DNA from: Myxococcus stipitatus
GTDB taxonomy: Bacteria; Myxococcota; Myxococcia; Myxococcales; Myxococcaceae
Reading direction: 5' to 3'
Assembly (NCBI RefSeq): GCF_021412625.1
Contig: NZ_JAKCFI010000009.1
Coordinates: 248,001 to 312,000 of the forward strand
Length of the DNA: 64,000 nucleotides
The translations under genes were made by a program, and so were the position numbers. Below the pieces are notes generated by a model. That model was not told where the DNA came from. It saw only the letters and a program-made list of their open reading frames with translations, and did no database searches. Position 1 is the first letter of the stretch, and each line of letters opens with the position of its first letter. Shown in pieces: positions 24,054 through 42,816 of this stretch.

Positions 24054-25531
24054 GGCCGGAACTCGCGCTCGGTGATGAGCTTCGTCCACCCCAGCGGGCT
24101 CAGCTCCGCGCCCGCGAACAGACCCGCCGCCAGGGACAACAGGGCCGTCGCCACCGTGGGCAACAGCAACGCGGGCCCCACCTCCCAGCGCCGGGCCTTG
24201 GGCGCCCACGGCTCGACCGGAGACTGGAACCACGCCGTGTAGAGGATGGGCAGGAAGTAGCCGGCGTTGAGCAACGTGCTCATCAGCAGCACCGCCACCA
24301 ACCAGGGCTCCCGCGCCTCCAGGGCGCCGATGCCCAGGTACCACTTGGTGATGAAGCCCGCGACCGGCGGAATGCCAATCATCCCCAGCGCGCCGACGGT
24401 GAAGGCCGCCATGGTGAGCGGCATCCTCCGCCCCACCCCCCGCAGCTCCGTCACCCGATGCACGTGCAGCTCCTCCGCCAGGTTCCCCGCGCAGAAGAAC
24501 AACGTGATCTTCATCAACCCCTGATGCACCAGGTGGACCAGCCCGCCAATCGTGGACACCGAACCGAAGATGGAGACGCCGACGACGATGTACGCGACCT
24601 GGCTCACGGTGGAGTACGCCAGCCGTCGCTTCAGGTCCCCTTGCTGGAGCGCGCGCAGCGAGCCGTAGAGGATGGTGACCGCCGCCACCACCGCGAGCGG
24701 GTGCAGCACGCCCAGGTCATGGACCAGGTACACGCCGAAGACGTCGTAGATGACGCGGGTGATGCCGAAGGCGCCGGCCTTCACCACCGCGACCGCGTGC
24801 AGCAGCGCGCTGACCGGCGCGGGCGCCACCATGGCCACCGGCAGCCACCCGTGAAAAGGCACCAACGCCGCCTTCACCGCCAACCCGCCGATGAGCAACG
24901 CGAAGGCCACCGTCAGCTCCACGTGACGCCCCGCCACCCCGTCCAGCGCGCCGCCCTCCGTGAACTCCACCGAGCCCGCGAGCGTGTACAGCAGCGCCAC
25001 CCCCGCCAGCAGCAGCGTGGCGCCGCTCAACGTGTAGCGCAGGTAGACGTTGCCCGCGCGCAGCGCCTCCGGCGTCCCCCGGTGGATGACGAGCGGGTAC
25101 GTCGACAGCGTCAGCATCTCGTAGAACAGGAAGAAGGTGACGAGGTTGCCCGCCATGGCGATGCCCATGGTCGAGGCGACACACAGGGAGAAGAAGCCGA
25201 AGAAGCGGCTGCGGTGGGGCGTGCCCTCCAGGTAGCCCACCGCGTAGATGGTGGTGACGAACCACAGCACCGCGGACAACGTGATGAACAGCAGGCTGAA
25301 GGTGTCCGCGCGCAGCACCAGGTCCGCATTGGGAAGGAACGTCACCCGCGTCTCGTACCGGCGCCCGTGGAACACGCCCCAGGCCATGGCGGCGGTCAGC
25401 AGCAGCTTCGTCACCGCGGCGGTGAGGTTGAGCAGGGTGCGCGGGACGCGCTGCTCCTCGGCGAGCAGGAAGATGACCAGCCCGGGGAGCAACGAGCTGA
25501 GCAGCACCGCCATCGGCAGCCAGGTGTTCAT
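24050..25531 (-). CDS. mrpD: Mrp-type cation/proton antiporter subunit D (second NuoL/M/N-like)
   Basis: 493 residues; its ATG at 25531 overlaps the previous stop by four bases. It is a member of the proton-conducting transporter family with about 14 membrane helices. The TM5 glutamate E138 is present in FFLFYEMLTLS, the TM7 lysine in LAVKAALVPFHGWLP, and SALLHAVAVVKAGAF is the motif typical of MrpD. The protein forms part of a membrane complex that exchanges Na+ or K+ for protons. Which of the three sister subunits is the true MrpD cannot be settled by eye; this one has the best match at the HAVAVVKAG helix. Confidence 0.87.
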   Translation of the reverse strand: MNTWLPMAVLLSSLLPGLVIFLLAEEQRVPRTLLNLTAAVTKLLLTAAMAWGVFHGRRYETRVTFLPNADLVLRADTFSLLFITLSAVLWFVTTIYAVGYLEGTPHRSRFFGFFSLCVASTMGIAMAGNLVTFFLFYEMLTLSTYPLVIHRGTPEALRAGNVYLRYTLSGATLLLAGVALLYTLAGSVEFTEGGALDGVAGRHVELTVAFALLIGGLAVKAALVPFHGWLPVAMVAPAPVSALLHAVAVVKAGAFGITRVIYDVFGVYLVHDLGVLHPLAVVAAVTILYGSLRALQQGDLKRRLAYSTVSQVAYIVVGVSIFGSVSTIGGLVHLVHQGLMKITLFFCAGNLAEELHVHRVTELRGVGRRMPLTMAAFTVGALGMIGIPPVAGFITKWYLGIGALEAREPWLVAVLLMSTLLNAGYFLPILYTAWFQSPVEPWAPKARRWEVGPALLLPTVATALLSLAAGLFAGAELSPLGWTKLITEREFRP

Positions 25532-26952
25532 CGCGCCGTCCCCACCGCCAGCAGCTCCAGCGGGAACCAGGGCACCAGCCCCAGCACCAACGCGATGAGC
25601 GCCAGCGCCAGCGGCGCCAGCTCGTTGCCCAGGGGAATCGAGCGGACCTTCACGCCGGGGGGCAAGGGCAGGAACGAGCCCCGGAGGATGCGGAAGACAT
25701 ACGCCGACGCCAACAGCCCTCCCAGCAGGAGCACCAACCCCCACCACCACTGCCCCGTCCAGATGGACTCCTCCAGGAGGATCCACTTGGCGATGAAGCC
25801 ACCACTGGGCGGCATGCCAATCAGGCTGATGCCCCCCAGCGCCATGGCCAGGAACGTGAACGGCATGCGGTACGCCAGCCCCTGCACGCCCCCCAGCTCC
25901 GTGATTCCCACCGCCTGGTGGATGTTGCCCACCGCCACGAACATGGAGGCCTTCGCCGCGGCGTGGGAGACGACCAGGTACACCGCCCCCGTCCGGGCCC
26001 CCACGGTGGCCATGGGGAAGAACAGGAACATGTAGCCAATCTGCGCGACGCTCGAATACGCGACGACGCGCTTGAGCTGCGACTGGCTCAGCGCCAGCAG
26101 CGAGCCCCACAGCACCGCCGCCGCGCCCAGCACGCCCAGCAACTGCCCCACCTGCCAGTCGAGGATGGGCGTGAAGACCTCCAGCCATAGCCGCAGGAGC
26201 ACGTAGTACGAGCCCTTCGACACCAGCGCCGACAGGAGCGCGGTGACGGGCGTGGGCGCCCCCGTGTACGTCGGCGGCAGCCACACGTGGAGCGGGAACA
26301 GCGGCGTCTTGAGGCACAGCCCCAGCGTCATCAGCGCCGCGGCCACCCACGCCACCGGCCCCGGGGTGATGCGCTGCCCCAACAGCCCCAGGTCCAGCGC
26401 GGAGTAGACGCCGTAGAGCAGCGCCACGCCCAGCAGGTACAGGAGCGAGCCCGGCAGCGCGAAGAGCAGGTAGCGCAGCCCCGCGTCCAGCCCCGCCCGG
26501 TCGCGCCGCACGGCGATGAGGGCCACGGAGGCCAGCGTCATCAACTCCAGCGTCACGTAGAGGTTGAAGGCATCCGCCGACAGCACCAGCGCGTTGAGCG
26601 CGCACCAGACGAAGAGCCACAACGGCAGGAACTCGCGGTCCTCCCGGTCGCCCAGGTGGTCCAGCGCGTGGACGCTGATGAGCGGCCCCACCACGCCGAT
26701 GGTGAGCAGCATCAACACGGCCAGCCCGTCCGCGCGCCACTCGATGCCCAGGGGCGGCCCCCACCCGCCAATGGACTGGCGCAGCACCCCGCGCGTGGCC
26801 ACCTCCCAGGTGAGCATCACGGACGCGGCGAACGTCGCCACCGACGCGAGCCCCGCCACGACGCGCACCCCCTTGCGCCCCACCAGCAGCGCGAGCACCG
26901 CGCCCGCCAGGGGGAGTACGACCGGCCACGCCATCCAGGCCGTGGGGTTCAT
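25528..26952 (-). CDS. Mrp-type cation/proton antiporter subunit D (first NuoL/M/N-like)
   Basis: 474 residues from the ATG at 26952, overlapping the stop of the MrpC gene by four bases. It is a proton-conducting transporter family protein. E136 in LYVTLELMTLAS and the TM7 lysine in LCLKTPLFPLHVWLPPTYTG are both present, as is a lysine in LLSALVSKGSYYVLLRL. In Mbh-like operons the gene right after the MrpC homologue encodes MbhH/MrpD, so this position would be the canonical one. The following two genes are extra copies of the same family. It acts in the cytoplasmic membrane. Confidence 0.87.
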   Translation of the reverse strand: MNPTAWMAWPVVLPLAGAVLALLVGRKGVRVVAGLASVATFAASVMLTWEVATRGVLRQSIGGWGPPLGIEWRADGLAVLMLLTIGVVGPLISVHALDHLGDREDREFLPLWLFVWCALNALVLSADAFNLYVTLELMTLASVALIAVRRDRAGLDAGLRYLLFALPGSLLYLLGVALLYGVYSALDLGLLGQRITPGPVAWVAAALMTLGLCLKTPLFPLHVWLPPTYTGAPTPVTALLSALVSKGSYYVLLRLWLEVFTPILDWQVGQLLGVLGAAAVLWGSLLALSQSQLKRVVAYSSVAQIGYMFLFFPMATVGARTGAVYLVVSHAAAKASMFVAVGNIHQAVGITELGGVQGLAYRMPFTFLAMALGGISLIGMPPSGGFIAKWILLEESIWTGQWWWGLVLLLGGLLASAYVFRILRGSFLPLPPGVKVRSIPLGNELAPLALALIALVLGLVPWFPLELLAVGTAR

Positions 26953-27281
26953 CCCGCGCCCCCGCCCGCCTCGGCGTCCGACCCGGCGCGCCCCTCCTCG
27001 GCCGTCTCGTCGAGCCGGGCGATGCGCCGGGCGAGCGCCACGCCCAGCGCGGTGGAGCTGACCGACACCACGATGCCCGTGAGCACCAGCGCGTGCGGCA
27101 CCGGGTCCGGCGTCCCCGTCGGCTCGCGCCGCGCCAGCGACACCAGCACCAGCAACACGCCGGAGCCCATGATGTTCGAGGCGAGGATGCGCTTCACCGG
27201 GTGCTCGTGGGAGAACAGCCCCACCAGCCCCACGCTGAACACCGTCACGCCCGACAGCGCGTAGAGGACCCACGGGTTCAT
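26949..27281 (-). CDS. mrpC: Mrp-type antiporter subunit C (NuoK-like)
   Basis: 110 residues, start ATG at 27281 overlapping the previous stop. It is a small protein of three membrane helices (LYALSGVTVFSVGLVGLF, RILASNIMGSGVLLVLVSLA, PHALVLTGIVVSVSSTALGV) of the NuoK/MnhC family, with the usual N and P-H-A-L-V-L-T segment. It sits between the MrpB-like and MrpD-like genes, as in all Mrp and Mbh operons. The last 20 residues are a charged, Gly/Ala-rich tail. Confidence 0.92.
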   Translation of the reverse strand: MNPWVLYALSGVTVFSVGLVGLFSHEHPVKRILASNIMGSGVLLVLVSLARREPTGTPDPVPHALVLTGIVVSVSSTALGVALARRIARLDETAEEGRAGSDAEAGGGAG

Positions 27282-28210
27282 GGCGCCTTCCCCCCCGACA
27301 CCCGGGCGGGCCGCACCCCGGGGAAGAACATCAGCAACACCAGCGCGATGGTCGCCGTCAGCGCCAGCTCCACGACGAAGATGAGCGTGCCCGCGAGGTC
27401 GCGCCGGTACTCGAGCAGGTCGCGCCCGGAGAACAGCGGCGCCACCGCCACCGCGATGAACAGCAAGGGCCCGGTGAGCAGCACCACCCGCACGCGCCAC
27501 GAGGACAACCGGGGTGCCCCCATCTGCAGCGTGAGGAGGGCCACCACGCCTCCTCCCGCCAGGATGGCCCCCGCCTGGAACGCGCCCCCGGGGCCATGCT
27601 CCCCCACCCACACCAGGTAGCCGGCGACGAGCAGCAACGCGGGCACCATCATCCGGAACAGCTCCCCCGTCAGCGGGTCGCGCGCGGGCTCCGGCGAGGG
27701 ACGCTCCGTGCGCGGGTTCACCGCCCGGGCCCCCAGCGCCGCCACCAGGAGCACCGCTATCTCCAGCAGCGTGTCGTAGCCCCGGAAGTTGAGCAGCACC
27801 GCCGTGACGGGGTGCTCCACTCCGCTCCGCGCCAGCCGGGCATCCACCTCGCGCGTCAGCCCCGGGTCGTCCGGCGGCAGCGCGAGCACCGCCCACCCCA
27901 GCACGCCCGTCAACGCCGCCAGCGCCAGCAGCGACCCGGGCCTGCGCCGGGCGCGCGCGACGATGTCGGGCGGGCGCTCGTCCGTCCAGCTCAGCGTGTG
28001 CATCAACAAGGCCCCGGTGAGGCCGGTGCCCACCGCCGCCTCCACGAGCGAGATGTCGGGAGCGTCCAGCCGCGCCCAGCCCAGCGCGGCCAACAGCCCC
28101 AGCGCGACGAAGAGCACCACCGCCTGGGACAGCGACTCGGTGCGCAGCACCATCCACGCCAGCAGCGGCAGGCACAACGCGAGGCACGCGTCGAAGAGGG
28201 CCATCGTCAT
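27278..28210 (-). CDS. Mrp-type antiporter subunit: MbhD/DUF4040 fused to MnhB
   Basis: 310 residues from the ATG at 28210 (ATGA overlap with the MrpG stop). The first ~90 residues match the MbhD/DUF4040 segment that forms the C-terminal part of MrpA in Bacillus (DISLVEAAVGTGLTGALLM). A middle section with LLNFRGYDTLLEIAVLL fits MbhE. The last ~140 residues are MnhB (GGAFQAGAILAGGGVVALL, FFPGV). So the membrane segments that in Bacillus lie at the end of MrpA are here fused to subunit B. This explains why the operon has no full-length MrpA. Confidence 0.88.
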   Translation of the reverse strand: MTMALFDACLALCLPLLAWMVLRTESLSQAVVLFVALGLLAALGWARLDAPDISLVEAAVGTGLTGALLMHTLSWTDERPPDIVARARRRPGSLLALAALTGVLGWAVLALPPDDPGLTREVDARLARSGVEHPVTAVLLNFRGYDTLLEIAVLLVAALGARAVNPRTERPSPEPARDPLTGELFRMMVPALLLVAGYLVWVGEHGPGGAFQAGAILAGGGVVALLTLQMGAPRLSSWRVRVVLLTGPLLFIAVAVAPLFSGRDLLEYRRDLAGTLIFVVELALTATIALVLLMFFPGVRPARVSGGKAP

Positions 28211-28521
28211 GGCGGGCGCCGCCCCGTCCAGGGCGCCGCCCCCCGGCGCAGCGCCGCCCGGGCGACCAGCTGGCAGGTGAAGGCGCTGGAGATGAGCACG
28301 AAGAACCAGACGAGCAGCAGCTCGAGCGCCGTCGCCCAGGAGCCCGACTGGAGCGCCAGCCCCAGCACCACCAGCCCCAGCCCCAGGTTGTCCACCTTGG
28401 TGAGGGCGTGCAGGCGACAGTAGACATCCGGGAAGCGCAGCACCCCCACCGTGCCCGCCAGGGTGAAGAAGGCCCCGGCGAGCATCAGCGCCGCGCACAC
28501 TCCGTCCAGGAGGGCGCTCAT
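28207..28521 (-). CDS. mrpG: Mrp-type antiporter subunit G
   Basis: 104 residues, ATG at 28521 overlapping the MrpF stop by four bases. It has the MnhG/PhaG pattern: a first helix (ALMLAGAFFTLAGTVGVLRF), the conserved PDVYCRLHALTK loop, then two more helices. It is a small accessory subunit of the membrane antiporter complex. The C-terminus is Arg/Pro-rich. It is third in the operon. Confidence 0.93.
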   Translation of the reverse strand: MSALLDGVCAALMLAGAFFTLAGTVGVLRFPDVYCRLHALTKVDNLGLGLVVLGLALQSGSWATALELLLVWFFVLISSAFTCQLVARAALRRGAAPWTGRRPP

Positions 28522-28796
28522 CGCCGCTCCCGCTCCGAGGCCTCGCCGCCCACCGCGAAGCGCACGAACGCGACGACGGTGACGGGCGCCAGCAGCGCGA
28601 ACACCAGCGCCACGTCGCGCAGCGCCGCCTGCCCGGGGGCCGCGGCCAGCAGGACGAGCACGCCCACCCCCGTGGTGCCGAACAGCTGCGCCACGATGAA
28701 GCGGTCGGTGAGCGAGGGCCCCAGGACGACGCGCACCAGGCCCGCGAGGATGTTGAGAAGCAGGAACAGCGCCAGCCCCATCCGCAGCTCAGCCAT
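28518..28796 (-). CDS. mrpF: Mrp-type antiporter subunit F
   Basis: 92 residues from the ATG at 28796, which lies eight bases inside the end of the MrpE gene. The MnhF/PhaF pattern is clear: three helices with VVLGPSLTDRFIVAQLFGTTG and a following DVALVFALLAPVTVVAFVRF. An open frame upstream of this ATG is only the shadow of the MrpE gene. Confidence 0.93.
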   Translation of the reverse strand: MAELRMGLALFLLLNILAGLVRVVLGPSLTDRFIVAQLFGTTGVGVLVLLAAAPGQAALRDVALVFALLAPVTVVAFVRFAVGGEASERERR

Positions 28797-29343
28797 GCGT
28801 GGCCTCCCGGGGCGGGAGCCGCAGGCCGAACAGCCGCGACACGCGCCACTCCAGGTCATCCAGCTCGTGGTGCAGCCCCTCGCCCCGGTCCACCAGCGCG
28901 TGGACCACCACCTCGTCCCCATCCACGTCCGCGTTCAACGTCCCGGGCATCAGGCTCAAGGTGATGCGGAACAACGTCTGGGGCGCGCCGGAGGGCAGGC
29001 GCATCCGGTAGCGGATGAGGACGGGGGAGATGGGCAGGCTCGGCAGGAGCGCCCGGTAGGCCACGTCCGCGCCTCCCCGAACCGAGCCGGAGAAGAAGAA
29101 GAGCGCGAAGCGCAGCACCTCCAGCGGCGACCACCCGCCCGGACGCGGCGGGCTCAACCGGAAGCTCACCCACGCCACCGCCGCCACGACGAACACCCCG
29201 AACGGGACGCTGCTCGGGTCCGCGTCACACAGGGCCCACCACGCCGTGGCCAGCAGCACGACGCGAATCCCCGCGTTCACCCAGGCCCCGGACCGCCACC
29301 AGGGCCCGCTCCCTCGCTCCGTGTCTGAGTCCCGTTGCGCCAC
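28789..29343 (-). CDS. mrpE: Mrp-type antiporter subunit E, first gene of the operon
   Basis: 184 residues. Two N-terminal membrane helices are followed by the MnhE soluble part, which has [39 protein letters not shown] and HALVD. This is the usual MnhE/MbhA layout. The start is the ATG at 29343, just after the first gene's promoter region. No gene for hydrogenase or complex I redox subunits accompanies the operon, so it encodes a stand-alone antiporter and not a respiratory or hydrogen-evolving complex. Likely role: Na+/K+ and pH homeostasis. Confidence 0.9.
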
Positions 29344-30401: not shown

Positions 30402-33131
30402 TCAGGGCACGGACGCCCCGGAGGCGCCCACGCGGACGACCTGGGTCGTGGAGGCGCTCACGCCCCGGGCATCCGTCGCGGTGAGGGTGACGGTGTAGTG
30501 CCCCGGCGCCAGGTAGCGGTGCTCCAGGTAGCCCGCCTCCACCGTGGTGCCGTCCCCCAGGTCCCAGCGGAAGCGCTGAATCCATCCGCCCGGGTCGGTG
30601 GTCGTGGTCGTCGTCCCGTCGAGGAACACGTCGTGGGGCGCCCTGTCACCCACGAAGGGTCCCCCGGTGATGCGCGGCACCGGCCGGGGCCCGTCGCCCT
30701 CACCGGGCCCGCGCAGGCGGCGCACCGTCGAGGAGCCCTGGTCCACGACGAGCACGTCCCCGGAGGGGAGCGCGGCCAGCCCCGTGGGCAGGCTGAAGGT
30801 CGCCTGGTCCGCCGCCCCGTCCCGCGCGCCGTGCACGCCCGCGCCCGCGTACGTGCGCACCTGTCCTCCAACCAGCGCGCGGATGCGCTCGTTGCCCGTG
30901 TCCGCGATGAGCAGCCGCCCGTCCACGTAGGCGGCCCCCAGCATGGGCATGAAGAGCGCGCCGCCCCCCGCCCCGTCCGAGGACCCGCCCGTCGTGCCAC
31001 CCGCCACCGTCGTCGTGGTGGAGGCCGCGTCCAGCGCCACCCTGCGGATGAGGCGGTTGCCCGTGTCCACCACCCACAGCGCCCCGCCCCCCGCCGCCAC
31101 CGCCGTGGGCCGCTTGAGCCGGGCCTGGCTCGCGGGGCCGTTGGTGCTGCCCGCGCCCTTCGCGCCGATGACGGTGACCACCCGCGCGTCCGGGGAGATG
31201 CGCGCCAGACGGTGGTTGAAGGTGTCCGTCACGTACAGGTCGCGCCCCTGGAAGACGACGCTGGTGGGCGTCTGGAAGCGCGCGGCGGCGCCCACGCCGT
31301 CCGCCCGGCCCTGGCGGCCCTCCTTGGAGCCAGCGAACGTGGACACCGTCCACCGGCCATCCCGCGCGATGCGCACGACACGGTGGTTGCCCGTGTCCGC
31401 CACGTAGAGGGTGCCATCCGTGGCCACGGCGATGCCCTGGGGAGAGCGCAGGCGCGTCGTCGCGCCGGGGCCCTCGCCCACGCCCGCCGTCCCCGTGCCG
31501 GCGATGGTGGTGACGGTGCGCGCCGCGTCGTTGGCGACCCTGCGCACCGCGTGGTTGCCCGTGTCCGTGACGAAGACGTTCCCCTCGCCGTCCACGGCCA
31601 CGCCCACCGGCCGGCGGAAGCGCGCGGACGTCGCCGGGCCGTCCTGGAAGCCCTCCTGGAAGGCGCTCCCCGCGAAGGTGGACACGCCGCCCGACTGGCC
31701 CGTCCGGTCCACTGGCCGCGGCACCTCCGCGCCGAAGGTGTCTCCCGGGCCGGTCGGCGTCAGCCCCGCCTTGCGCATCACGTTGTCGGTGATGCGCTGC
31801 ACGCGCAGGTCCGCGAACTGGGGGTGGGACAGGCCGAAGGACCAGGCGATGCCGCCGCTGGAGAACACGAACGCGCCGGAGGGCGCCGTGTACAGCCCCG
31901 CGGTGTGCCAGTTGGGCTCGCCCGTGTTGGCGATGGCCGGCGACTGCGCGAGCGGGATGAACCCCGGAGGCGTGCGCCCGTTCGCCCAGGCCCGGTCGAT
32001 TTCGTAGCCGACGATGGAGAGGATGGAGTCGCCCTCCTCCAGCCCCGTGCCCTCGAAGGGCCACGCGCGGGGGCTGCGCACCACGAAGGGCTGGTTGATG
32101 ATGCCCCACGCGTCGGACATCACGCCCACCAGCGCGTTCTCCGGCGCGTCCAGCCGCGCGTTGCGCCAGCGCACCGTCATGAGCGGCGTGCCCGCGCGTG
32201 GGTCCTCCCGGGGCGCCTCGTCCTTGTAGCAGACCTGCCGCCGCCTCGACGTCCCGCTCCCGGAGGGCTCCAGCCGGATGAGCCAGCAGCTGGTGTCCCC
32301 CGCGAAGAAGGCCAGGTTCACCCCCGACGCGAGCGCCGCCTCCACCGCCTCGCGCGCCGGACGCGACCAGTACTCGTCATGGCCCACGGTGACGAACAAC
32401 TTCTGCCCCAGCAGCAGCGAGGGGTCGCGGTCCACGTCCACGTTGGTGACGTACGTCACGTCGTAGCCCTTCGCCTCCGCCCACAGCACGAAGTAGTGGG
32501 GGTAGTAGAAGTACTCGCCCGCGCCGTTGCCGTCCGCGTATGGCCGGTCGAACGACACGACCTTCGCGTGTCCGCCGGACAGGCCCAGCGACGTCGCGTA
32601 GAGGCTCTCCCCGCCCCACGCGTTGTAGGCCTGGAAGGTCGTGACGGAGAGCTGGACCACCGCCACGCCCTTGCGCTCGTCGGCGCGCAGCACGAAGGGG
32701 ACGTAGGACTGGCGCCCGTCGTCGCGGATGAGCTTCACCAGGTACACGCCGCTGGGCCACGAGGACTGGGTGGCCACGGTGAAGCTCCTCGGCCAACGGC
32801 ACTCCACCAGCCCCGTCGTCGGGTCCGCCACCGGCGTGGGCTGCGGCCCGATGGAGACGGGCCCACCCGACGCCATCCTCCGCGAACCCGTGCCGCCGTA
32901 GTACCCCATGCGGTACAGCTCCCAGCGCACGGGACGGACGCCGTCGGTCCTCACGTGGATGTCGAGGGACTCCCCGCGCTGGACGCTGACCTGGCTGGCA
33001 TATCCCTCGAGCTGGTTGGAGGCCGCGGGTTGTCCCAGCTTCCAGTCGGCGGTACCAGGCTGACCATTCTCGCTCGCGATCGGGTTGGCCCCCATCATGC
33101 CCACCATCGTCAGGATGACCGACATCCACAT
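30402..33131 (-). CDS. Secreted protein: DMFase-like domain, six NHL blades, PKD domain
   Basis: 909 residues from the ATG at 33131, which has GGGGAGG eight bases upstream; the open frame continues upstream without signal features. Residues 1-20 are a signal peptide. About 30-430 resemble the N,N-dimethylformamidase large-subunit C-terminal domain (SVTTFQAYNAWGGESLY, GHDEYWSRPAREAVEAAL, FFAGDTSCW). About 440-790 hold six NHL blades, each ending like ADTGNHRVVRI. The last ~90 residues are a PKD domain (WDLGDGTTVE, GHYTVTLTATD). The amide-hydrolysing site of DMFase cannot be confirmed. The set suggests an exported carbohydrate- or polymer-binding protein. Confidence 0.84.
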   Translation of the reverse strand: MWMSVILTMVGMMGANPIASENGQPGTADWKLGQPAASNQLEGYASQVSVQRGESLDIHVRTDGVRPVRWELYRMGYYGGTGSRRMASGGPVSIGPQPTPVADPTTGLVECRWPRSFTVATQSSWPSGVYLVKLIRDDGRQSYVPFVLRADERKGVAVVQLSVTTFQAYNAWGGESLYATSLGLSGGHAKVVSFDRPYADGNGAGEYFYYPHYFVLWAEAKGYDVTYVTNVDVDRDPSLLLGQKLFVTVGHDEYWSRPAREAVEAALASGVNLAFFAGDTSCWLIRLEPSGSGTSRRRQVCYKDEAPREDPRAGTPLMTVRWRNARLDAPENALVGVMSDAWGIINQPFVVRSPRAWPFEGTGLEEGDSILSIVGYEIDRAWANGRTPPGFIPLAQSPAIANTGEPNWHTAGLYTAPSGAFVFSSGGIAWSFGLSHPQFADLRVQRITDNVMRKAGLTPTGPGDTFGAEVPRPVDRTGQSGGVSTFAGSAFQEGFQDGPATSARFRRPVGVAVDGEGNVFVTDTGNHAVRRVANDAARTVTTIAGTGTAGVGEGPGATTRLRSPQGIAVATDGTLYVADTGNHRVVRIARDGRWTVSTFAGSKEGRQGRADGVGAAARFQTPTSVVFQGRDLYVTDTFNHRLARISPDARVVTVIGAKGAGSTNGPASQARLKRPTAVAAGGGALWVVDTGNRLIRRVALDAASTTTTVAGGTTGGSSDGAGGGALFMPMLGAAYVDGRLLIADTGNERIRALVGGQVRTYAGAGVHGARDGAADQATFSLPTGLAALPSGDVLVVDQGSSTVRRLRGPGEGDGPRPVPRITGGPFVGDRAPHDVFLDGTTTTTTDPGGWIQRFRWDLGDGTTVEAGYLEHRYLAPGHYTVTLTATDARGVSASTTQVVRVGASGASVP

Positions 33132-33478
33132 GTGAATGTCCTCCCCGGGCGTTGTCGTGAGCGGCGACATGCCTTTCACCTCGAACCCACGAGGCATTGG
33201 GCGCCCTTCAACAGACACGCGCTGGCGCGTGTCAGGGCAGACACCCTGAATGTCTTCCATTACCCGGTGAGCCGCGGGCGCCCATCCCCCCACAGGGATT
33301 CCCACCACGCCTGGACGCGAGGCGTCGCGAGTGTGCGCCGGAGTGGTCTGGCGTATGTGATGGGTTCCGGTCGCTTCCCCGGCGAGGAGGCTGTTGGCCG
33401 GCCATCGTCGTGTCGATGAACTAGACTCGTCGTCGCGTGCGCGGGCTGGGGGCGCGCCACGCCACCACGAGGCGAGCC
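33132..33478. other. 347-bp divergent intergenic region
   Basis: It separates the minus-strand NHL/PKD gene from the plus-strand hydrolase-kinase operon, so it should hold both promoters. I see no convincing promoter pair, repeat or short gene. Confidence 0.4.
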
Positions 33479-34282
33479 ATGAACCGGACGGTCCTCACCC
33501 GAAACAACGTACAGCTCGTTGGCGGAGGAGACGACATCGTCGTCTTCGCCCACGGCTTCGGTACCAACCAGACGGTGTGGAAGAACCAGGTGCGCGAGCT
33601 GGAGGCCTCGCACCGCATCGTCCTCTTCGACCACGTGGGAGCGCCGGGCTCCGACCTGGAGGCCTACAGCCCCCACCGCTACTCGAGCCTGGAGAGCTAT
33701 GCCTCGGACCTCGTCGAGGTGCTCGACGCGGTCGGGGCCCGGGACGTCTTCTACGTCGGGCATTCGATGAGCGCCATGATTGGCCTGGTCGCGGGCGTCA
33801 TGAGGCCGGAGCTGTTCCGGTCCATGTTCTTCATCGGCGGGTCGCCCCGCTACCTGAACGCGCCCAGCTACGTGGGCGGCTTCGAACGACACGAAATCGA
33901 CGCGCTGTACGAGACGGTGGAGCAGCACTTCGAGGCCTGGGCGAGCGGCTTCGCGAAGGCGGCGATGGGGCCCTCCGCCACGCGCGAGCACGCGGACACG
34001 TTCGCGGAGTCGTTGATGGCCCTGCGGCCCGACATCGCCATCGGGCTGGTGCGCATCATCTTCGAGTCCGACTTCCGCGAGCAGGTCCCCCACCTCACCA
34101 TCCCGACGTGCGTCGTCCAGCCCCTCGACGACTTCGCCGTGCCCACCAGCGTGGGCGAGTACCTGGCGAGGACCGTGCGCCAGGGGCGCATCGAGTACGT
34201 CCCCAACCAGGGGCACCTGCCCCACGTGACGGCGCCGAGGGAGCTCAACGCGGTCCTCTCGCGGGCCATCGCGGAGTCATGA
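33479..34282 (+). CDS. RsbQ-like alpha/beta hydrolase (KAI2/D14 relative)
   Basis: 267 residues from the ATG at 33479 with GAGG upstream. It aligns with Bacillus RsbQ along its length: [50 protein letters not shown], and nucleophile S96 in GHSMSAMIG, acid D217 or D218 in QPLDDFAVP and H246 in NQGHLPH. The Ser and His fall at or next to RsbQ S96 and H247. RsbQ works with the PAS-domain phosphatase RsbP in stress signalling; plant homologues sense small ligands. Here the stop overlaps the start of a hybrid histidine kinase (ATGA), so the partner is most likely that kinase. Confidence 0.9.
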
Positions 34283-36798
34283 AGGCATGGGAGACGGCGA
34301 CCTCGGACGCCGACGAGCTCCCTGGACTGGCTCCGCAGACGCCCGCGATGACGGACCTGATGGTCTCCGTGGTACGGGCCCTCGCGGTCCGCGATGGCGC
34401 GCAGCTGGAGCGCGTGCTGGAGACGGTGCGCCGCCACTGCGGCGCGCAGCTCGCCGTGAGCCTGCGCCGCATCGACGCCGTCACGGTCATCGAGCTGGCC
34501 GGCGCGCCGGCCCAGAGGCCCCGGCTGGCGCACCTGGGCGACGTGCTCTTCCGGGGCGCGCTGGGCGGCGCGGAGTGGCGCTTCTTCGACCCCGAGCCCC
34601 GCAACACCGAGCTGCCAGAGGCGCTCCGGGGCGCGGTGGCCCTGCTGCCCTGGCAGTCCATCGACGAGCGCCGGGGCGGCATCCTCCTGGTGCGCGAGGG
34701 CCACCAGCCCTTCTCCCACGCGGAGCGCACCGCCCTCCAGGCCCTGGCGGGGTTGCTCGTCACCACCGCGCGCGAGCGCGACCTGGAGGGCGCCACGGAG
34801 GTGCTGCGCGCGCGCGTGGACGCCATCTCCCACGCGCTCCCGTGCGGCCTCGTCTTCGTGGAACAGAACCGCCTGGAGACCTGGGTCAACCGCCCGGGCG
34901 CGCTGCTGCTCGGGCTGTCGGAGGGCCAGGTGCCCGCGCACCTGCTGGCCCCGGCCATGGCCGCCCTGCGCGCCCGCGCGACGAACCGGGAGCAGATCGA
35001 CGCGTGGATGGCGCTGCTGTTCGACGTCAACCCGCCGGAGCTGCGAGACATGCTGTGGCGCTTCGACTCGCCCCACCGCGTCCTGTCCGTGTCGTGCGTC
35101 CCGGCGCGGCGGGGCGCGGCGCGCGGACGGCTGTGGGCCTTCCTCGACGTCACGGAGGCCCAGGAGGCGCTGGCCGCCATGGCGGAGAAGAACACCGCCC
35201 TGGCCGCGGCCCGCGCGGAGGCGGACGCAGCCAACGCGGCCAAGTCCAGCTTCCTGGCCAACATGAGCCATGAAATCCGCACCCCCATGAACGGCGTGCT
35301 CGGCATGGCGCAGCTGCTGCGGGAGACGGGCCTCACCGAGGAGCAGCGCGAGTGCGTCGAGGTCATCCACACCAGCGGCGACGCGCTCCTGCGCCTCATC
35401 AACGACCTGCTCGACTTCTCGAAGATAGAGGCCGGCGCGTTCGAGCTCGACAGCCAGCCCTTCTCCCTGCGGCGGCTGCTCAAGGAGTGCCTGGCGTTGC
35501 TGTCGCCGCAGGCGGCGGCGCGGGGGCTGTACCTGCAGCACCAGGTGGACGCGGACGCGCGGGACGCGCTGCTGGGGGACAAGATGCGCCTGCGCCAGGT
35601 GCTGGTGAACCTGGTGGGCAACGCCCTCAAGTTCACGCACGACGGCGGCGTGACCGTCCACGTGTCGCGGGGCGCGCCCCCCGCCGACGCGCGCGCCGCC
35701 GAGCCCCTGCGCATCCGCATCCGCGACACCGGCATCGGCATCCCCGCGGAGCGGATGGACCGGCTGTTCCGCTCCTTCAGCCAGGTGGACGCCTCCACCA
35801 GCCGCCACTATGGCGGCACGGGCCTGGGGCTCGCCATCAGCCTGCGGCTGGCACAGCTGATGGGCGGCACCATCCACGTGGAGAGCACCCCGGGCCAGGG
35901 TTCGACCTTCACGCTGGAGGTGCTGCTGGCGGAGGGACCTCCCATCCAGGGCCACGCCCCGCCGGAGCTGGACGTCACCCTGGGCTCCCGCCACCCGTTG
36001 CGCGTGCTGCTCGTGGAGGACAACCCCATCAACCAGAAGGTGGGCCTGCGGCTGTTCCGCAAGCTCGGCTACGAGGCGCGCGTGGTGGGCAACGGCCTGG
36101 AGGCGCTCAACACCCTGGAGCGCGAGCCCCACGACGTCGTCTTCATGGACGTCCACATGCCGCACATGGACGGCCTGGAGGCCACCCGCCACGTCCGCGA
36201 GGCGCCGGAGCGGTATGGCCGGCCGCGCATCGTCGCCATGACGGCGAGCGCCATCCGCGAGGACCAGGAGCGCTGTCGCCAGGCGGGCATGGACGACTTC
36301 GTCACCAAGCCCGTGGATGCCTTCGTGCTCGTCGCCGCGCTGGAGCGCGCCTCCGGGCACCGCGACACGCGCGAGCCGCCCGCCTCGTCGAGCGCGCACC
36401 CGGACGCGCCCCCCTCCACGCCCGTGCTCGACCGGAGCGCGCTCGAGAAGCTGGAGATGCTCACCGGCGGCGAGCGCCAGGAGCTGGGCGCCCTGGTGCG
36501 CGACTTCCTGCGCAACGCCGGCAGGCACCTGGAGTCCTTCCAGGGCGCGGTGGAGGCGCGGGACACGGCCGGCCTCGCGCGCCACGCCCACAGCCTGCGC
36601 TCCAGCGCCGCGCTCTTCGGGGCCAGCCGCCTGGCCCGCGCGTGCGAGCACCTGGAGGAGCTGGCCCAGCGCGAGCCCATGGAGAAGCTGACGGGGAAGG
36701 TGGCCTCCGCCCTGCGCGACCACGAGGAGGCCCGGCTCGCCCTGGAGGCCGCCGTACCGGAGGCGCGCGCCCCGGGCGCCGAGCCGCCCCGCGGCTGA
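34279..36798 (+). CDS. Hybrid histidine kinase: GAF, PAS, HisKA, HATPase, receiver, Hpt
   Basis: 839 residues; the ATG overlaps the hydrolase stop. No membrane helices or signal are seen, so it is cytoplasmic. About 25-170 is GAF-like; about 175-300 is PAS-like and ends in [14 protein letters not shown], followed by a short coiled coil. HisKA has H331 in [12 protein letters not shown]. The HATPase has [20 protein letters not shown] and [10 protein letters not shown]. The receiver has D624 in [13 protein letters not shown] with the KP motif of VTKPVD. The Hpt domain has H771 in [13 protein letters not shown]. All phosphorelay residues are present (H-D-H), so it needs a separate response regulator; none is adjacent. 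The RsbQ-like neighbour probably feeds its GAF/PAS input. Confidence 0.93.
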
Positions 36799-36802
36799 TG
36801 CG

Positions 36803-38494
36803 TCACCCGTCCACGCCCGCGTCCGGCGTGGAGGCCAGCGCGCCCAGCAGCGCGAGGAAGGCGTCGGCCAGGCGCTCCACCTCCTCGCGGTGGAACCGCG
36901 CGGTGGAGTATTCGAGGGCGGCGCGGACGCCCGCCGGTTCCTCCCGCAGCAGCAAGGCCAGGTCGAAGCGCGCCGTCCCGGGCAACGACCCATCCGGGGT
37001 GTCCGTCAGCAGCTCGCAGGCCAGGCCGGGGATGGTCAGGTCGAGCGGGGCCGCGCGCTCGAACAGGCACGCGGCCTGGAGCCGCGACTCGCCCCATTCC
37101 CCCGCCACGAGGTCGGCCACCTCGTCGAAGGGCAACCGCTGATGGGCCAGGGCCTCCAGGGTGGTGGAGAGGTGGCGCGACAGCAGCGCGTGGAACGACG
37201 GGTTGCCCGACACGTCACACCGCAGGGCGACGAGGTTGGAGAGCGGGCCCACCACCTCCCGCGCCTCGCGCGACTCCCGGTTGGCCACCTCCGCGCCGAG
37301 CACCAGGTCGACCTGCCCCGAGTGCCGGCGCAGGAGCGCGGCGAACACGGCCGACAAGGTGACGAAGAGCGTCGCGTCCACGCGCGACCCCACGGCCCTC
37401 GCGGCGGCGACCAGGGGCGCGGGGAGCTCGAAGCAGACGGTGTCCCCCTCGGGCGGCGGGTCCACGTCGCGCGGGCGGGAGGACCACACCCGGGGCCGAG
37501 AGCCCGTCAAACGCTGGCGCCAGTACTCGCGCTGGCGCGCCGCGGCCTCGCTCCCCAGCCACGCCCGTTGGCGCCGCGCCACGTCCGCGGGCTGGCACTC
37601 GGGCGCGGCCAGCGGCAGGGGAATCCCCGCGCGGAAGACGCGGTACAGCGACGCCAGCTCCCGCATGAACACGCCCAGCGACGTCGCGTCCGTGACGAGC
37701 CGGTGCTGCGTCACCAGCAGCACGTGCGTGAGCGCGCCCAACCGCACCAGCGTCGCGCGGATGAGCGGCTCGCGCCTGGGGTCGAAAGGGGCGCGCGCCA
37801 GCGACGCGTCCAGCCGCTGGAAGGTCTCCGACGCGAGCCCCCGTCCGTCGCCGCCGCCCCCGCGCGGGGACAGGTCCACGAGCGGCATCTCGGGCCGGAG
37901 CGAGGGCGACACCACCTGCACCAGCCGCCCCTCGCGCTCGACGAAGAGCGTCCGCAGCGCCTCGTGCCGACGCACCACCTCCCGCAAGCCTCGCCGCAGG
38001 GCCTCCACGTCGAGCGGGCCATCGAAGCGCAGGCGGAAGTGGACGTGATGGAGCGCGCGTCCGGGGAACCCGCGCGCGAGGTGCCAGAGCCGACTCTGCT
38101 CCCGCGACGCGGGCACCACCCCGTCGGGCGCCGCGGCGTCCTCGTCACCGGGAGGGGGACCTGCTCCGAGCTCCTCCGCTGTCGAGGCCAGCCACCGCGC
38201 CAGCCTCTCGATGGTGCGCTGGCGCCACAGCGACGCCACGTCCAGGGACAGGCCCAGCCATCGCGTCAGGTCATGGGCCAACGCCACCGCGCCCAGCGAA
38301 TCCAGCCCCTGCTCCACCAGGGACCGGCGCGCGTCGATGGCGCGCGGAGGCCTTTGCCAGTGGTAGGCCAGCCACTCCACCACCCAGTCCTCGATGGCGT
38401 CCGGGTGGGCGGGCATGCGGGCCCCGGAGAGCGCCGAGGTGAGGCGCGTCAGGCTCTGGCTCGACACGTCCCCTTCGGCGCCCTTGGGTCTCAC
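36803..38494 (-). CDS. Orphan carrier-condensation didomain protein, NRPS-type
   Basis: 563 residues from a GTG at 38494 with GAGG upstream; an ATG at residue 27 is also possible. Residues of about 33-105 are a peptidyl/acyl carrier domain with the phosphopantetheine Ser66 in LVEQGLDSLGAV. Residues of about 125-560 are a condensation domain, with RLWHLARGFPG, RRHEALRTLFVE, LASLYRVFRAG, GAEVANRES and LPFDEV. The active-site motif HHxxxDG reads H264-R-L-V-T-D269-A: the second, catalytic His is Arg and Gly is Ala. So normal amide-bond formation is doubtful. No adenylation or thioesterase gene is near. It ends 4 bp from the convergent kinase gene. It may act in ester formation, in trans, or as a non-catalytic binder. 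Confidence 0.86.
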   Translation of the reverse strand: MRPKGAEGDVSSQSLTRLTSALSGARMPAHPDAIEDWVVEWLAYHWQRPPRAIDARRSLVEQGLDSLGAVALAHDLTRWLGLSLDVASLWRQRTIERLARWLASTAEELGAGPPPGDEDAAAPDGVVPASREQSRLWHLARGFPGRALHHVHFRLRFDGPLDVEALRRGLREVVRRHEALRTLFVEREGRLVQVVSPSLRPEMPLVDLSPRGGGGDGRGLASETFQRLDASLARAPFDPRREPLIRATLVRLGALTHVLLVTQHRLVTDATSLGVFMRELASLYRVFRAGIPLPLAAPECQPADVARRQRAWLGSEAAARQREYWRQRLTGSRPRVWSSRPRDVDPPPEGDTVCFELPAPLVAAARAVGSRVDATLFVTLSAVFAALLRRHSGQVDLVLGAEVANRESREAREVVGPLSNLVALRCDVSGNPSFHALLSRHLSTTLEALAHQRLPFDEVADLVAGEWGESRLQAACLFERAAPLDLTIPGLACELLTDTPDGSLPGTARFDLALLLREEPAGVRAALEYSTARFHREEVERLADAFLALLGALASTPDAGVDG

Positions 38495-38683: not shown

Positions 38684-40177
38684 TCAGGGCAGCAGCGGCA
38701 CCATCCACAACTGGTAGGCCACCGTGTCGTCGAAGGCGGTGAAGTACATCCGGTCCTCCACGCGCGTGTAGTGGAGCGGATAGGTGTTGGGGACTCCGGG
38801 GCGCAGGTCCCTCAACAGGCGCGTGCCGGTGGGCGTCCCGTCCGTCACCCAGGGCTCGACGCCCGTCTCGTCCGAGTGCGCGGCGAAGAACACATACCGG
38901 TCATCCGCGGCGACGATGGGCGAGGAGTATTCGTCGGAGACGCTCAGGGGCCGGCGCAGCAGCTTCGTCCCCTGGGACGTGCCATCCGTCACCCACAGCT
39001 GCGTGTCGCGCGGCGTGGCGCCCGAGCTGCCGATGAACAGCTCGAAGAAGAGCCGGTCTCCCGCCCGCGCGAAGTGGGTGACGAGCGGAGCGGCCTCGCC
39101 TTGCGACGCATACGGGTTGGGCAGCGTGGCGACCTCCACCGGCGCCTCCAGCCCCCCCAGGTCGAGCGTGTAGAGCGTGAGCAGCTGCGACTCCGGCTCG
39201 ACGAGCGAGAAGTACAGGGTGTCCCCCACCGCGGCCAGCATCCGCGGGATGCGGCCATCCTGGGGGAGCGTGAAGAGGTTGCGCGTCCCGCCGCTGGTGC
39301 CGTCCGTCCCCCAGATGGACGTGGAGCCCTCCGCGTTGAACATGCTGAAGAAGGCCTGTTCGCCCACCTCCCCCATCTCCATCGGGACATAGCCACCGTC
39401 CTCCGCCGGGAAGGAGGCGACGACGCGCGTCCCCGCGAGGGTGCCGTCCGTGCGCCACGCCTGGACGCCTCCGTCGACGTCCGACACGAAGAAGAGCACG
39501 CCATTGCCCACCCGCACCGTGCGCCAGTCCACCGCGCCGCCAGGCACCATGGGCACCACGCGCTGCGTCCCCTCCGGCGTGCCGTCGCTGCGCCACAGCT
39601 CCGAACGGGCCACCTCCGGGGGCGCCGCGGGGAGGTGCCGGAAGAACGCCACCACGTCTGCCAACGGGGTGAGCCCCGTCAGGCTGGAGCTCGCCGGCCC
39701 CGGCGTCAGGTCCGCCACCCGCCGCGTCCCCTCCACCGTCGCGTCCGACACCCACAGCTCGTTGCCCGCGGGCGCGTCCCCCGCCGTGAAGAACAGCAGC
39801 GAGCCGGTGCTGGCGAGCTGAGTCACCCGGGCATCCGCGCCGGGGAGCTGCCCCGCGGGGAAGGTCTTCAACGCGTGGGTCCCCAGGGTGGTGCCATCGC
39901 TCACCCACAGCGCGCGGGCGCCAATCTCGAAGTTGGCCGCGAACAGCAGCCGGCCCTGGAAGGGCGTCAGCTCCGCGGGGCCCGGCGCCAACCTCGGCGG
40001 CAGCTCCGTCTGGGGGAAGAACGCCTTGACCCGCCGTGGCGCCCCGGGCCTGAGCGCCGCGTGCACCGAGAGGGCGGGCTCCCGCTCCTCCCACGCCCCT
40101 TCGTCCGGGGACGTCGCGCCACACGCCGCCAGCAGCCCGCCCATCCACGCCATTCCCAGCCATGCCCGTCCATGCAT
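38684..40177 (-). CDS. ELWxxDGT-repeat propeller lipoprotein
   Basis: 497 residues. The signal ends in LAAC with Cys19. The rest is made of seven repeats of the ELWxxDGTxxGT type (for example ELWRSDGTPEGT, LWVTDGTSQGT and PWVTDGTPTGT) with FFTAGDA- and VFFAAHS-like strands between, which suggests a seven-bladed beta-propeller. Such proteins are common in Myxobacteria, and their function is unknown. Probably anchored in the outer membrane. It is a single gene. Confidence 0.88.
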   Translation of the reverse strand: MHGRAWLGMAWMGGLLAACGATSPDEGAWEEREPALSVHAALRPGAPRRVKAFFPQTELPPRLAPGPAELTPFQGRLLFAANFEIGARALWVSDGTTLGTHALKTFPAGQLPGADARVTQLASTGSLLFFTAGDAPAGNELWVSDATVEGTRRVADLTPGPASSSLTGLTPLADVVAFFRHLPAAPPEVARSELWRSDGTPEGTQRVVPMVPGGAVDWRTVRVGNGVLFFVSDVDGGVQAWRTDGTLAGTRVVASFPAEDGGYVPMEMGEVGEQAFFSMFNAEGSTSIWGTDGTSGGTRNLFTLPQDGRIPRMLAAVGDTLYFSLVEPESQLLTLYTLDLGGLEAPVEVATLPNPYASQGEAAPLVTHFARAGDRLFFELFIGSSGATPRDTQLWVTDGTSQGTKLLRRPLSVSDEYSSPIVAADDRYVFFAAHSDETGVEPWVTDGTPTGTRLLRDLRPGVPNTYPLHYTRVEDRMYFTAFDDTVAYQLWMVPLLP

Positions 40178-41184: not shown

Positions 41185-42816
41185 ATGTTTGGTGTTACAC
41201 ACATCCAGGCTCCGTTCGCATACCGAGACGCGTCATGCGGCTCTGGTAGAGTCCGGGGCCTTCAGAGGTCTCCCCTGCGGACACGTTTCACGAGACACAC
41301 CATCGGAGCCCTGGGTTCGGCCGCCCTGCTCATGCTGCTGCCCTGGGTCGTCTACGGGAGCGCCATCACCCATCGCTACGGCCTGCGCGACGACTACTCC
41401 ATCCTGCGCGAGGCGCGGGAGGAGCCCGGGAAGATCCTCCGGGTCTGCGGCGCCATGGGGCGGCCGCTGTATGGCTGGTTGTTGGAGCGGTCCACGCTCG
41501 CCGCGGGGGACATCGACGGCCTGGCCGGGATGCGGGCGCTGGCCCTGGCGGGGCTCGGGCTTCTTTCGACGGCGGTGTTCCTGGTGCTGCGCCGGGAGGG
41601 CTGGCGGGGCGTGCCCGCCGCGCTGCTGGCGGCGCTGCTGGGGGTGATTCCCTCCGCGCAGGTCGTCGCCAGCTGGAGCATCTGCTGGCCGCAGCCGGTG
41701 GCGCTGCTGGCCAGCGTGGCCGCGTTCGCGCTCGCGCGGCGGGGACTGGAGGGGCCCTCCGCAGAGACAGCGTGGCGGCGCTGGGCCTTCCTCGTGGGCG
41801 GCGCGGTGGCGCTCGGCGCGTCGGCGCTCATCTACCAGGCCAGCGCGCCGTTCTTCGTCGTGCTGCTGGCGGCGGCGCTGGTGACGCGCCCCTTCCCGGA
41901 CCCGCGCGCGGCGGCGCGCACCGGTGTCCAGTACCTGTGCGTCCTGGGCGGTGGGCTGGCGCTGGCGTACGCCCTCACGCGGGCGAGCTTCGCGCTGGGC
42001 GTCTTCTCGCCGTCCCCGCGCATGGTGTTCGAGCGGCACCTGCTCGACAAGGCGGGCTGGTTCGTGTCGCGCGTGCTGCCCAACGCGCTGGCGCTCATCG
42101 AGCTCAACGACACGGACGCGGCGCCCTCCGGCGGCTACGGCCCCATGGTGGCCTTCACGCTGATGCTCGTCGCCGCGGGGCTCGTCGCCGTGTGGCGCCG
42201 GGAGGGGCGCGTGGCGGTGGGCACGTGGCTGGCGGCGCTGCTCCTCCTGTCCGGCGCCGCCTTCTGCGTCAGCTTCCTCGCCGGGGAGCGCTGGCCCACC
42301 TACCGCACCCTCTACGCCCTCACCGGCGTGTGGTGCGTCTTCTTCGTCGCGTCGGCGGTGCGCCTGGGGGACGCGTGGCCTCGCGGCGGGCCGCGCGTGG
42401 CGGCGGTGCTGCTGGCCCTGTTCGTGACGCTGGGCGCCTTCCTGGCGCGACAACAGGCCCTGGAGCTGTTCGTCCAGCCCCAGTTGCGTGAGCTGGCGCT
42501 GATGCAGGAGGGCGCCGCCGCCGTCACCCCCTCGCGCCAGACGCGCGTGTTCGTCCTCACCGCGCGGCAGACGGACTCGTCCGCGCCCCAGCGCTACCTG
42601 GACGAGTTCGGCTCCGTCTCCGTCGACACGGAGTGGGTGGCCAAGGAGCTGTTCCAGGAGCTGGTGCGCGAGCGCTTCCCCCACGAACAGGACGTGCGTC
42701 GCCTCTACCGCTTCGCCGCCGGCCCTGGCCTGCCCGACCGGCGGGCCTATGACGTGCTGGTCGACATGCGCCAGCAGCGGCTCGCGTCGCCGCGCCCCAT
42801 CCAGCTCGCCCGCTAG
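41185..42816 (+). CDS. Polytopic membrane protein, glucosyltransferase (GtrII)-like
   Basis: Up to 543 residues; the ATG at 41185 has no good ribosome site, so the true start may be up to 40 codons downstream. About ten membrane helices are seen. The first extracytoplasmic loop has YGLRDDYSILREAREEPGK, with two aspartates after a helix as in GT-C transferases and O-antigen glucosyltransferases of the GtrII type. A C-terminal soluble stretch of about 100 residues (RVFVLTARQTDSSAPQRYLD) lies outside. Probable role: adding a sugar to a surface polysaccharide, but the donor and acceptor are unknown. Confidence 0.65.
   Translation: MFGVTHIQAPFAYRDASCGSGRVRGLQRSPLRTRFTRHTIGALGSAALLMLLPWVVYGSAITHRYGLRDDYSILREAREEPGKILRVCGAMGRPLYGWLLERSTLAAGDIDGLAGMRALALAGLGLLSTAVFLVLRREGWRGVPAALLAALLGVIPSAQVVASWSICWPQPVALLASVAAFALARRGLEGPSAETAWRRWAFLVGGAVALGASALIYQASAPFFVVLLAAALVTRPFPDPRAAARTGVQYLCVLGGGLALAYALTRASFALGVFSPSPRMVFERHLLDKAGWFVSRVLPNALALIELNDTDAAPSGGYGPMVAFTLMLVAAGLVAVWRREGRVAVGTWLAALLLLSGAAFCVSFLAGERWPTYRTLYALTGVWCVFFVASAVRLGDAWPRGGPRVAAVLLALFVTLGAFLARQQALELFVQPQLRELALMQEGAAAVTPSRQTRVFVLTARQTDSSAPQRYLDEFGSVSVDTEWVAKELFQELVRERFPHEQDVRRLYRFAAGPGLPDRRAYDVLVDMRQQRLASPRPIQLAR

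Follow-up and report, generated by a model that had tools for sequence, protein, structure and literature searches.

A stand-alone carrier-condensation protein of Myxococcus with an altered active-site motif and no biosynthetic cluster at its locus

Background

Condensation (C) domains that depart from the canonical HHxxxDG motif, or that stand outside the usual assembly line, have been described in several settings. The X domain of glycopeptide antibiotic synthetases bears HRxxxDD in place of HHxxxDG and recruits P450s (PMC11546977). According to the same source, activity sometimes survives a mutation of the second His, and the exact role of this residue is debated. In VibF, the C1 domain is without catalytic activity and serves in dimerisation (cited in PMC8795117). 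CmnI is a carrier-condensation (T-C) protein without an adenylation (A) domain; CmnA-A1 loads it in trans, and a close resemblance to canonical C domains has been reported for it (PMC12400406). The free-standing C domain OaaC, with the motif DHxxxDS, makes fatty acid amides, and more than 99% of OaaC-type sequences retain the second His (PMC13142362). Additionally, SgcC5 and FUM14 represent ester-forming C enzyme subtypes (PMC10212144).

The T-C protein considered here is encoded in a window of 64,000 nucleotides from Myxococcus stipitatus (contig NZ_JAKCFI010000009.1, positions 248,001 to 312,000), the window being the whole stretch of DNA that was analysed. No published description of the protein was found among the openly licensed papers of PubMed Central.

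Results

Architecture of the T-C protein

The features of the gene and its product are as follows.

36803..38494, minus strand: T-C didomain gene, 563 aa, GTG start; codon-position GC supports the frame; orthologues in 11/27 Myxococcus genomes
38180..38404, minus strand: T (acyl/peptidyl carrier) domain, about residues 31-105; the core recognised by the Pfam PP-binding profile is residues 48-102
38297..38299, minus strand: Ser66 codon (in GLDS), predicted phosphopantetheine attachment site; invariant in 11/11 orthologues
36812..38122, minus strand: C (condensation) domain, residues 125-561; Pfam PF00668
37685..37705, minus strand: altered C3 motif H264-R-L-V-T-D-A270 (canonical HHxxxDG), codons CAC CGG CTC GTC ACG GAC GCG
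37067..37069, minus strand: Cys476, invariant in 11/11 orthologues and found in 0/48 related C domains
37016..37018, minus strand: Cys493, invariant in 11/11 orthologues and found in 0/48 related C domains

As seen from the Pfam results, the carrier core matches PP-binding (PF00550) with E 5.9e-10 (39.7 bits against a cut-off of 20.8), and the serine stands in a GxDS motif that reads GLDS in every orthologue, as expected of a carrier. The match to Condensation reaches E 2.1e-56 (192 bits against a cut-off of 30.6) and covers positions 3-441 of the 456 in the profile; this full-length domain, above the curated cut-off, places the protein in the Condensation superfamily. At E <= 0.001 these two families were the only ones returned, with no match to the wax ester synthase/DGAT (WES) profile or to any other acyltransferase family. 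Pfam recognised no docking domain in the protein, although TubC_N was recognised in a related C protein. The NCBIfam model for mycolic Pks13 covers residues 34-109 with a score far under the whole-protein cut-off of that model, and the Pks13 carrier was also aligned to the T domain by way of PDB chains. The Pks13 carrier is loaded by a FAAL. An AlphaFold model, built from only two aligned sequences, had a pLDDT of 31.9 and was discarded.

The active-site motif and conserved residues

A sequence-only reading of the gene had reported an Arg in place of the second His and an Ala in place of the Gly of the motif, with Ser66 of the carrier kept. Alignment confirmed these replacements, and the residue numbering was correct. 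Ser66, H264 and D269 are invariant in all eleven orthologues, and the second His is missing from all of them, being replaced by Arg (codon CGG) in 8 and by Gln (CAG) in 3. The motif is HRLVTDA in the window, HRLVTDD in M. dinghuensis and H[RQ]LITDG in the other nine, leaving G, A or D at position 270. Not one homologue at this locus carries HHxxxDG, and the protein falls outside the canonical LCL type, which has this motif with the second His. Since the second His is absent in 11/11 while the serine, first His and Asp are invariant, the altered motif represents more than a chance change in one strain. As the catalytic residue 265 itself varies between Arg and Gln, it seems that no specific chemistry has been preserved there.

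For comparison, 53 related C domains were collected: 31 from the same genome, 19 from related genomes and 3 from Streptomyces. The genome has 32 other Condensation matches, of which C4:8727, below the family cut-off, was left out. The second His is retained in 52 of these 53 domains, and in 48/48 after the removal of five remote rows (two E-like HHxxxD domains, L044_+ with HH, L054 with DH and L049 with DG). At position 271 the orthologues have T, P, A or S, where 45/48 related domains have Trp; at position 302 they have P, A, W or V, where 42/48 have Tyr. R181, R246, S272, W325, G400, R406, G416 and P455 are invariant in the eleven orthologues. A non-catalytic C domain, as the sequence-only reading had suggested, is plausible from this pattern, in which the second His is lost throughout and positions 265, 270 and 271 vary but the structural residues do not.

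Two of the five removed rows deserve a separate description. L049 (G000:C11:158620) is a C-like domain in a frame of about 3,400 aa, with IDGTFVDG at the position of HHxxxDG, and is the only one of the 53 without the second His. L054:4311-5756 (plus strand; G000:C4:912475) is a stand-alone C protein of 481 aa by gene call with the motif DHILCDG, in which Pfam finds Condensation only; the motif resembles the DHxxxDS of the OaaC-type free-standing C domains for fatty acid amides. Five further genes were called in its 8-kb locus.

The positions of Cys476 and Cys493 are mostly occupied by F/L and W/L in the related C domains. The two cysteines, 17 residues apart, probably lie on one hairpin. Together with a DTPDxSxPG stretch they mark a clade-specific conserved region that could be a new active site.

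These residues bear on a first alternative, namely that the protein is an active stand-alone acyltransferase of changed chemistry, whose C domain would pass the acyl chain of the protein's own carrier to water or to a small free amine or alcohol, with Arg/Gln265 positioning the substrates or with H264 or Cys476 doing the chemistry. The invariance of H264 and D269, the two cysteines unique to the clade (11/11 against 0/48) and a constraint on the C domain about like that of HH-bearing relatives all agree with such an enzyme. Moreover, OaaC provides a precedent for amide formation by a free-standing domain with an altered motif, and the dispensability of the second His in some cases (PMC11546977) means that with H264 and D269 in place Arg or Gln could still support catalysis. 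However, OaaC-type domains keep this very residue almost without exception, whereas the T-C orthologues have uniformly lost it; residue 265 is not fixed, positions 270 and 271 vary, and no A domain or FAAL is encoded in the window or at the ten other loci. An active enzyme of this kind is considered possible, but it is the weaker bet.

Genomic context

None of the 63 AMP-binding matches in the genome lies on the contig of the window, and only one of the 33 Condensation matches does, that of the T-C gene itself. The earlier observation that there is no adenylation domain or cluster nearby was thus borne out, and tblastn agreed. Apart from the C domain of the T-C gene, tblastn and a profile check detected no C domain, and neither an A domain nor a FAAL, in the window or in the ten orthologous loci of about 20 kb; the tblastn check used FAAL, C and A domains as queries, and an NRPS locus included as positive control gave many matches. 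The possibility of a cluster broken by contig ends was rejected: the contig (C9) has 362,270 bases, with about 76 kb from the gene to its nearer end, and the other loci, four of which sit on contigs of 10 Mb, are also without a further C domain, an A domain or a FAAL within about 20 kb.

The neighbours that were followed are listed below.

33394..36798, plus strand: convergent neighbour, hybrid histidine kinase (HisKA, HATPase, receiver and Hpt by Pfam), context only
41185..42816, plus strand: protein with a sub-threshold GtrII glucosyltransferase match, flanking the T-C gene on one side in 11/11 genomes, with genes between or none
30402..33308, minus strand: DMFA2_C/NHL/PKD protein, flanking the T-C gene on the other side in 11/11 genomes, with genes between or none

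The gene map of the neighbourhood is based on codon-position GC, and the true start of the histidine kinase is probably near 34280. The kinase is found beside the T-C gene in 7/11 genomes and is not there in G072, G070, G061 and G071; the linkage is therefore not obligate, and a functional pair of the two genes was rejected. In 7 genomes that have the GtrII-like gene without the T-C gene, the surroundings of the GtrII-like gene are a different locus. No P450 was found by Pfam among the window neighbours scanned.

Two further observations were made in the surroundings. Directly upstream of the T-C gene, at 38684-40177 on the minus strand, lies a gene for an ELWxxDGT repeat protein with a lipoprotein-like N-terminus, which among the ten other orthologous loci occurs only in M. 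dinghuensis. Nearby genes at 24050-29343, also on the minus strand, encode Mrp-type Na+/H+ antiporter subunit domains (Proton_antipo_M, Oxidored_q2 and MNHE).

A stand-alone T-C protein without an A domain has the architecture of CmnI. Action in trans, as the sequence-only reading proposed, is reasonable, since the contig encodes no A domain and no C domain other than this one. It may be asked whether the didomain is a trans-acting module of a distant NRPS line, with weak but real condensation activity. The A domain or FAAL of another enzyme would then load the carrier, and the didomain would insert its cargo during assembly. CmnI, with its trans loading through CmnA-A1 (PMC12400406), supplies the model, and the genome has 33 C-domain and 63 AMP-binding matches. 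Nevertheless, CmnI reportedly resembles canonical C domains closely, whereas the T-C protein lacks the catalytic His, has no cluster near it and shows no docking domain recognisable to Pfam, and this explanation is regarded as highly improbable.

Distribution of orthologues

Orthologues were sought at two levels, with a protein search in 96 genomes from the family and with a profile search that covered 195 genomes across the phylum. An orthologue occurs at the same locus in 11/27 Myxococcus genomes, M. dinghuensis (G055) among them, and is absent from 16/27; all eleven genomes belong to Myxococcus. In the profile search the eleven orthologues, with frames of 584-735 aa, scored 960-1141 bits, and the match ranked after them had 450 bits. 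The other matches listed were all in frames of at least 1,109 aa. No comparable T-C protein appeared among the matches listed for the other 184 genomes, out to the level of the phylum, in a search that scored 7 candidates per genome and could miss weaker short relatives. The orthologues range down to 54% identity, with the frame open in 11/11. The best-scoring homologues with HHxxxDG are at most 43% identical and are megasynthase domains elsewhere. In a separate scan of genome contigs, which may omit the window's own or very near genomes, 2/167 candidate stretches were confirmed, one from M. dinghuensis and one a megasynthase of Streptomyces.

Phylogeny and origin

A maximum-likelihood tree was built of 64 C domains, comprising the 11 orthologues, 31 others of the same genome, 19 from related genomes and 3 from Streptomyces. 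The orthologues form a clade with support 100/100 inside a group of 31 with support 100/98, and the 20 other members of this group all bear HH. Phylogenetic placement of the C domain, which had been put forward as a check with WES-like domains among the candidates, gave a well-supported group of HH-bearing relatives, and Pfam returned no WES match. Common ancestry with amide-forming rather than E, Cy or X domains is indicated by this tree, in which no X or Cy reference and no curated subtypes were included.

Contexts were examined for three of the 20 other members. The C domains of L048 and L030 follow a FAAL-like ligase and a carrier, the ligase being an upstream AMP-binding domain with a DIP2-like C-terminal domain, which we take to be FAAL-like. 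L021 is a protein with a docking domain, and a PKS is encoded adjacent to it. The acyl donors in the contexts checked thus come from FAAL-type carriers or PKS, and nothing specific was found in favour of the ester-forming function that the sequence-only reading had offered as an option, nor did the Pfam results add any. Of that overall interpretation, the non-catalytic part is plausible, the trans-acting part is reasonable and the ester-forming part is without specific support.

The T-C clade is sister to the L048 family (FAAL-T-C-A-T) with moderate support (94/71), and among upstream carriers the T domain is matched best by the carriers from L030 and from the L048 family. The T-C protein apparently derives from a T-C unit downstream of a FAAL in lipid-initiating NRPSs, as far as the sequence relationships indicate.

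The L048 synthetase itself (G000:C2, about 236-243 kb) is of the FAAL-like-T-C-A-T type, with a luciferase-like monooxygenase insert in the second A domain. Its product might be a lipid amide by analogy with the myxothiazol system. In at least 21/27 Myxococcus genomes the matches listed include an L048-like one that reaches 400 bits or more, in a frame of 2,155-2,251 aa. An L048-like protein is present in 10/11 genomes with the T-C gene, M. dinghuensis being without a close match: its best match has 627 bits and 56% identity, compared with 1052-1066 bits and 75-76% in the four other genomes compared. As M. dinghuensis has the T-C gene and no equally close L048 match, L048, the nearest FAAL-T-C-A-T synthetase, was rejected as an obligate partner.

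Selection

The dN/dS values reported here are simple Nei-Gojobori estimates from a GC-rich genome and serve for comparisons only. For the C domain they are 0.15-0.47 in seven orthologue pairs, compared with 0.11-0.50 in seven pairs of HH-bearing relatives. For the T domain they are 0-0.135 in 6/7 pairs and 0.489 between the window protein and the M. dinghuensis orthologue, its closest relative. The N-terminal extension and linker, internal and mostly less-constrained controls, gave 0.25-1.13. The whole gene (0.18-0.50) evolves somewhat faster than three neighbours (0.11-0.39). These values indicate purifying selection on the T-C gene similar to that on its HH-bearing relatives. In the window's own lineage the constraint may be weaker, as the pair with M. 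dinghuensis reaches 0.47-0.50, although one HH-bearing pair is equally high at 0.499. Because Ser66 in GLDS is kept in 11/11 and the T-domain dN/dS is low in 6/7 pairs, the carrier function seems to be retained. A pseudogene was rejected, the frame being open and constrained in all eleven genomes.

The same values weigh on the idea of a remnant, that is, a functionless and drifting fragment of an NRPS. The loss of a catalytic residue, the lack of a cluster and A domain, the absence from 16 of the 27 Myxococcus genomes and the raised ratio in the pair of window and M. dinghuensis (which one HH-bearing pair equals) are all what a remnant would show. Against this, the open frame, the serine, the framework and the clade-specific residues have been kept in 11/11 down to 54% identity, and dN/dS is well below 1 for both domains in 7/7 pairs, with 0.25-1.13 in the extension and linker. 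A remnant is judged unlikely.

Discussion

With the serine of the carrier and the fold of the C domain retained, the catalytic His lost and no activating enzyme encoded at the locus, the simplest explanation is an acyl carrier that is loaded in trans and is held or presented by a non-condensing C domain. In the reading preferred here, to which a probability of about 0.5 is given, the T-C protein is an excised acyl-carrier and pseudo-condensation didomain that would be loaded in trans and would hold or present an acyl cargo. The carrier is predicted to be phosphopantetheinylated at Ser66 and would receive an acyl chain in trans, most likely from a FAAL. The C domain keeps its fold and framework residues, with Arg or Gln for the catalytic His and with some pocket aromatics replaced, and would probably not catalyse normal condensation. 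Instead, it may hold or shield the acyl-carrier or present it to another protein, in the way that the X domain recruits oxygenases or C1 of VibF dimerises its enzyme.

A more specific proposal, which we advance only tentatively, is a genus-restricted single-gene carrier, in which a FAAL-type carrier is permanently joined to a dead C domain with a new conserved Cys476/Cys493 patch, is preserved by selection although it belongs to no cluster, and stores or presents acyl groups outside peptide assembly. If the protein is a true pseudo-enzyme, an NRPS domain pair has been recruited to work outside any assembly line, and it would serve as a warning that genome-mining tools may label such a gene as an NRPS fragment. 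Moreover, His in the paralogues and Arg or Gln in the orthologues constitute a natural series at the second His, on small didomains with their own donor carrier, which lets the role of this residue be tested without a megasynthase.

L048, the nearest paralogue in the genome, has relatives in other myxobacteria. It contains a carrier and C unit that aligns over residues 20-562 with 41% identity, and both have a common TQH...TD...S signature at the active site (TQHHIVTDGWS in L048, TQHRLVTDATS in the T-C protein). However, L048 bears HHIVTDGWS in a multidomain protein of 2,222 aa with AMP-binding on both sides, whereas the T-C protein is stand-alone with H-R/Q. CmnI and VioI, the A-less modules in the making of capreomycin and viomycin, are similar in that CmnI is also T-C (PDB relative 9uay, 115 bits), but CmnI belongs to a known antibiotic pathway, and the T-C protein has no cluster near it. 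The PDB entry 8z0q ('Special condensation domain in NRPS'), for which a literature search found no paper under the code 8Z0Q, aligns with the entire C domain and some of the carrier, has a high profile score (227.6 bits) and likewise departs from the canonical motif, both His being replaced in it; it differs in the sequence of this region, RPWGIFDG, with DGWS kept.

The X domain (Tcp12, PDB 4tx2) has the C fold with HRxxxDD, which the HRLVTDD of the M. dinghuensis orthologue fits exactly; the window protein has HRLVTDA here and the other nine H[RQ]LITDG. It sits in a terminal NRPS module, whereas the T-C protein is without thioesterase, P450 or NRPS context. Membership of the glycopeptide X domains was rejected, as 4tx2 scores 142.7 bits against 279.2 (profile score) for the C domains of Txo1/Txo2, the nearest solved relatives. 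The OaaC type resembles the T-C protein in being a separate protein with an altered motif and an acyl donor on a carrier, but there the first His and the Gly are altered and the second His is kept; in the T-C protein the reverse is found, and the motif does not conform to (D/H)HxxxDS. Stand-alone T-C proteins and degenerate C domains have each been known separately, and what sets the present protein apart is their combination with a FAAL-type carrier in a cluster-free gene that is fixed in one clade.
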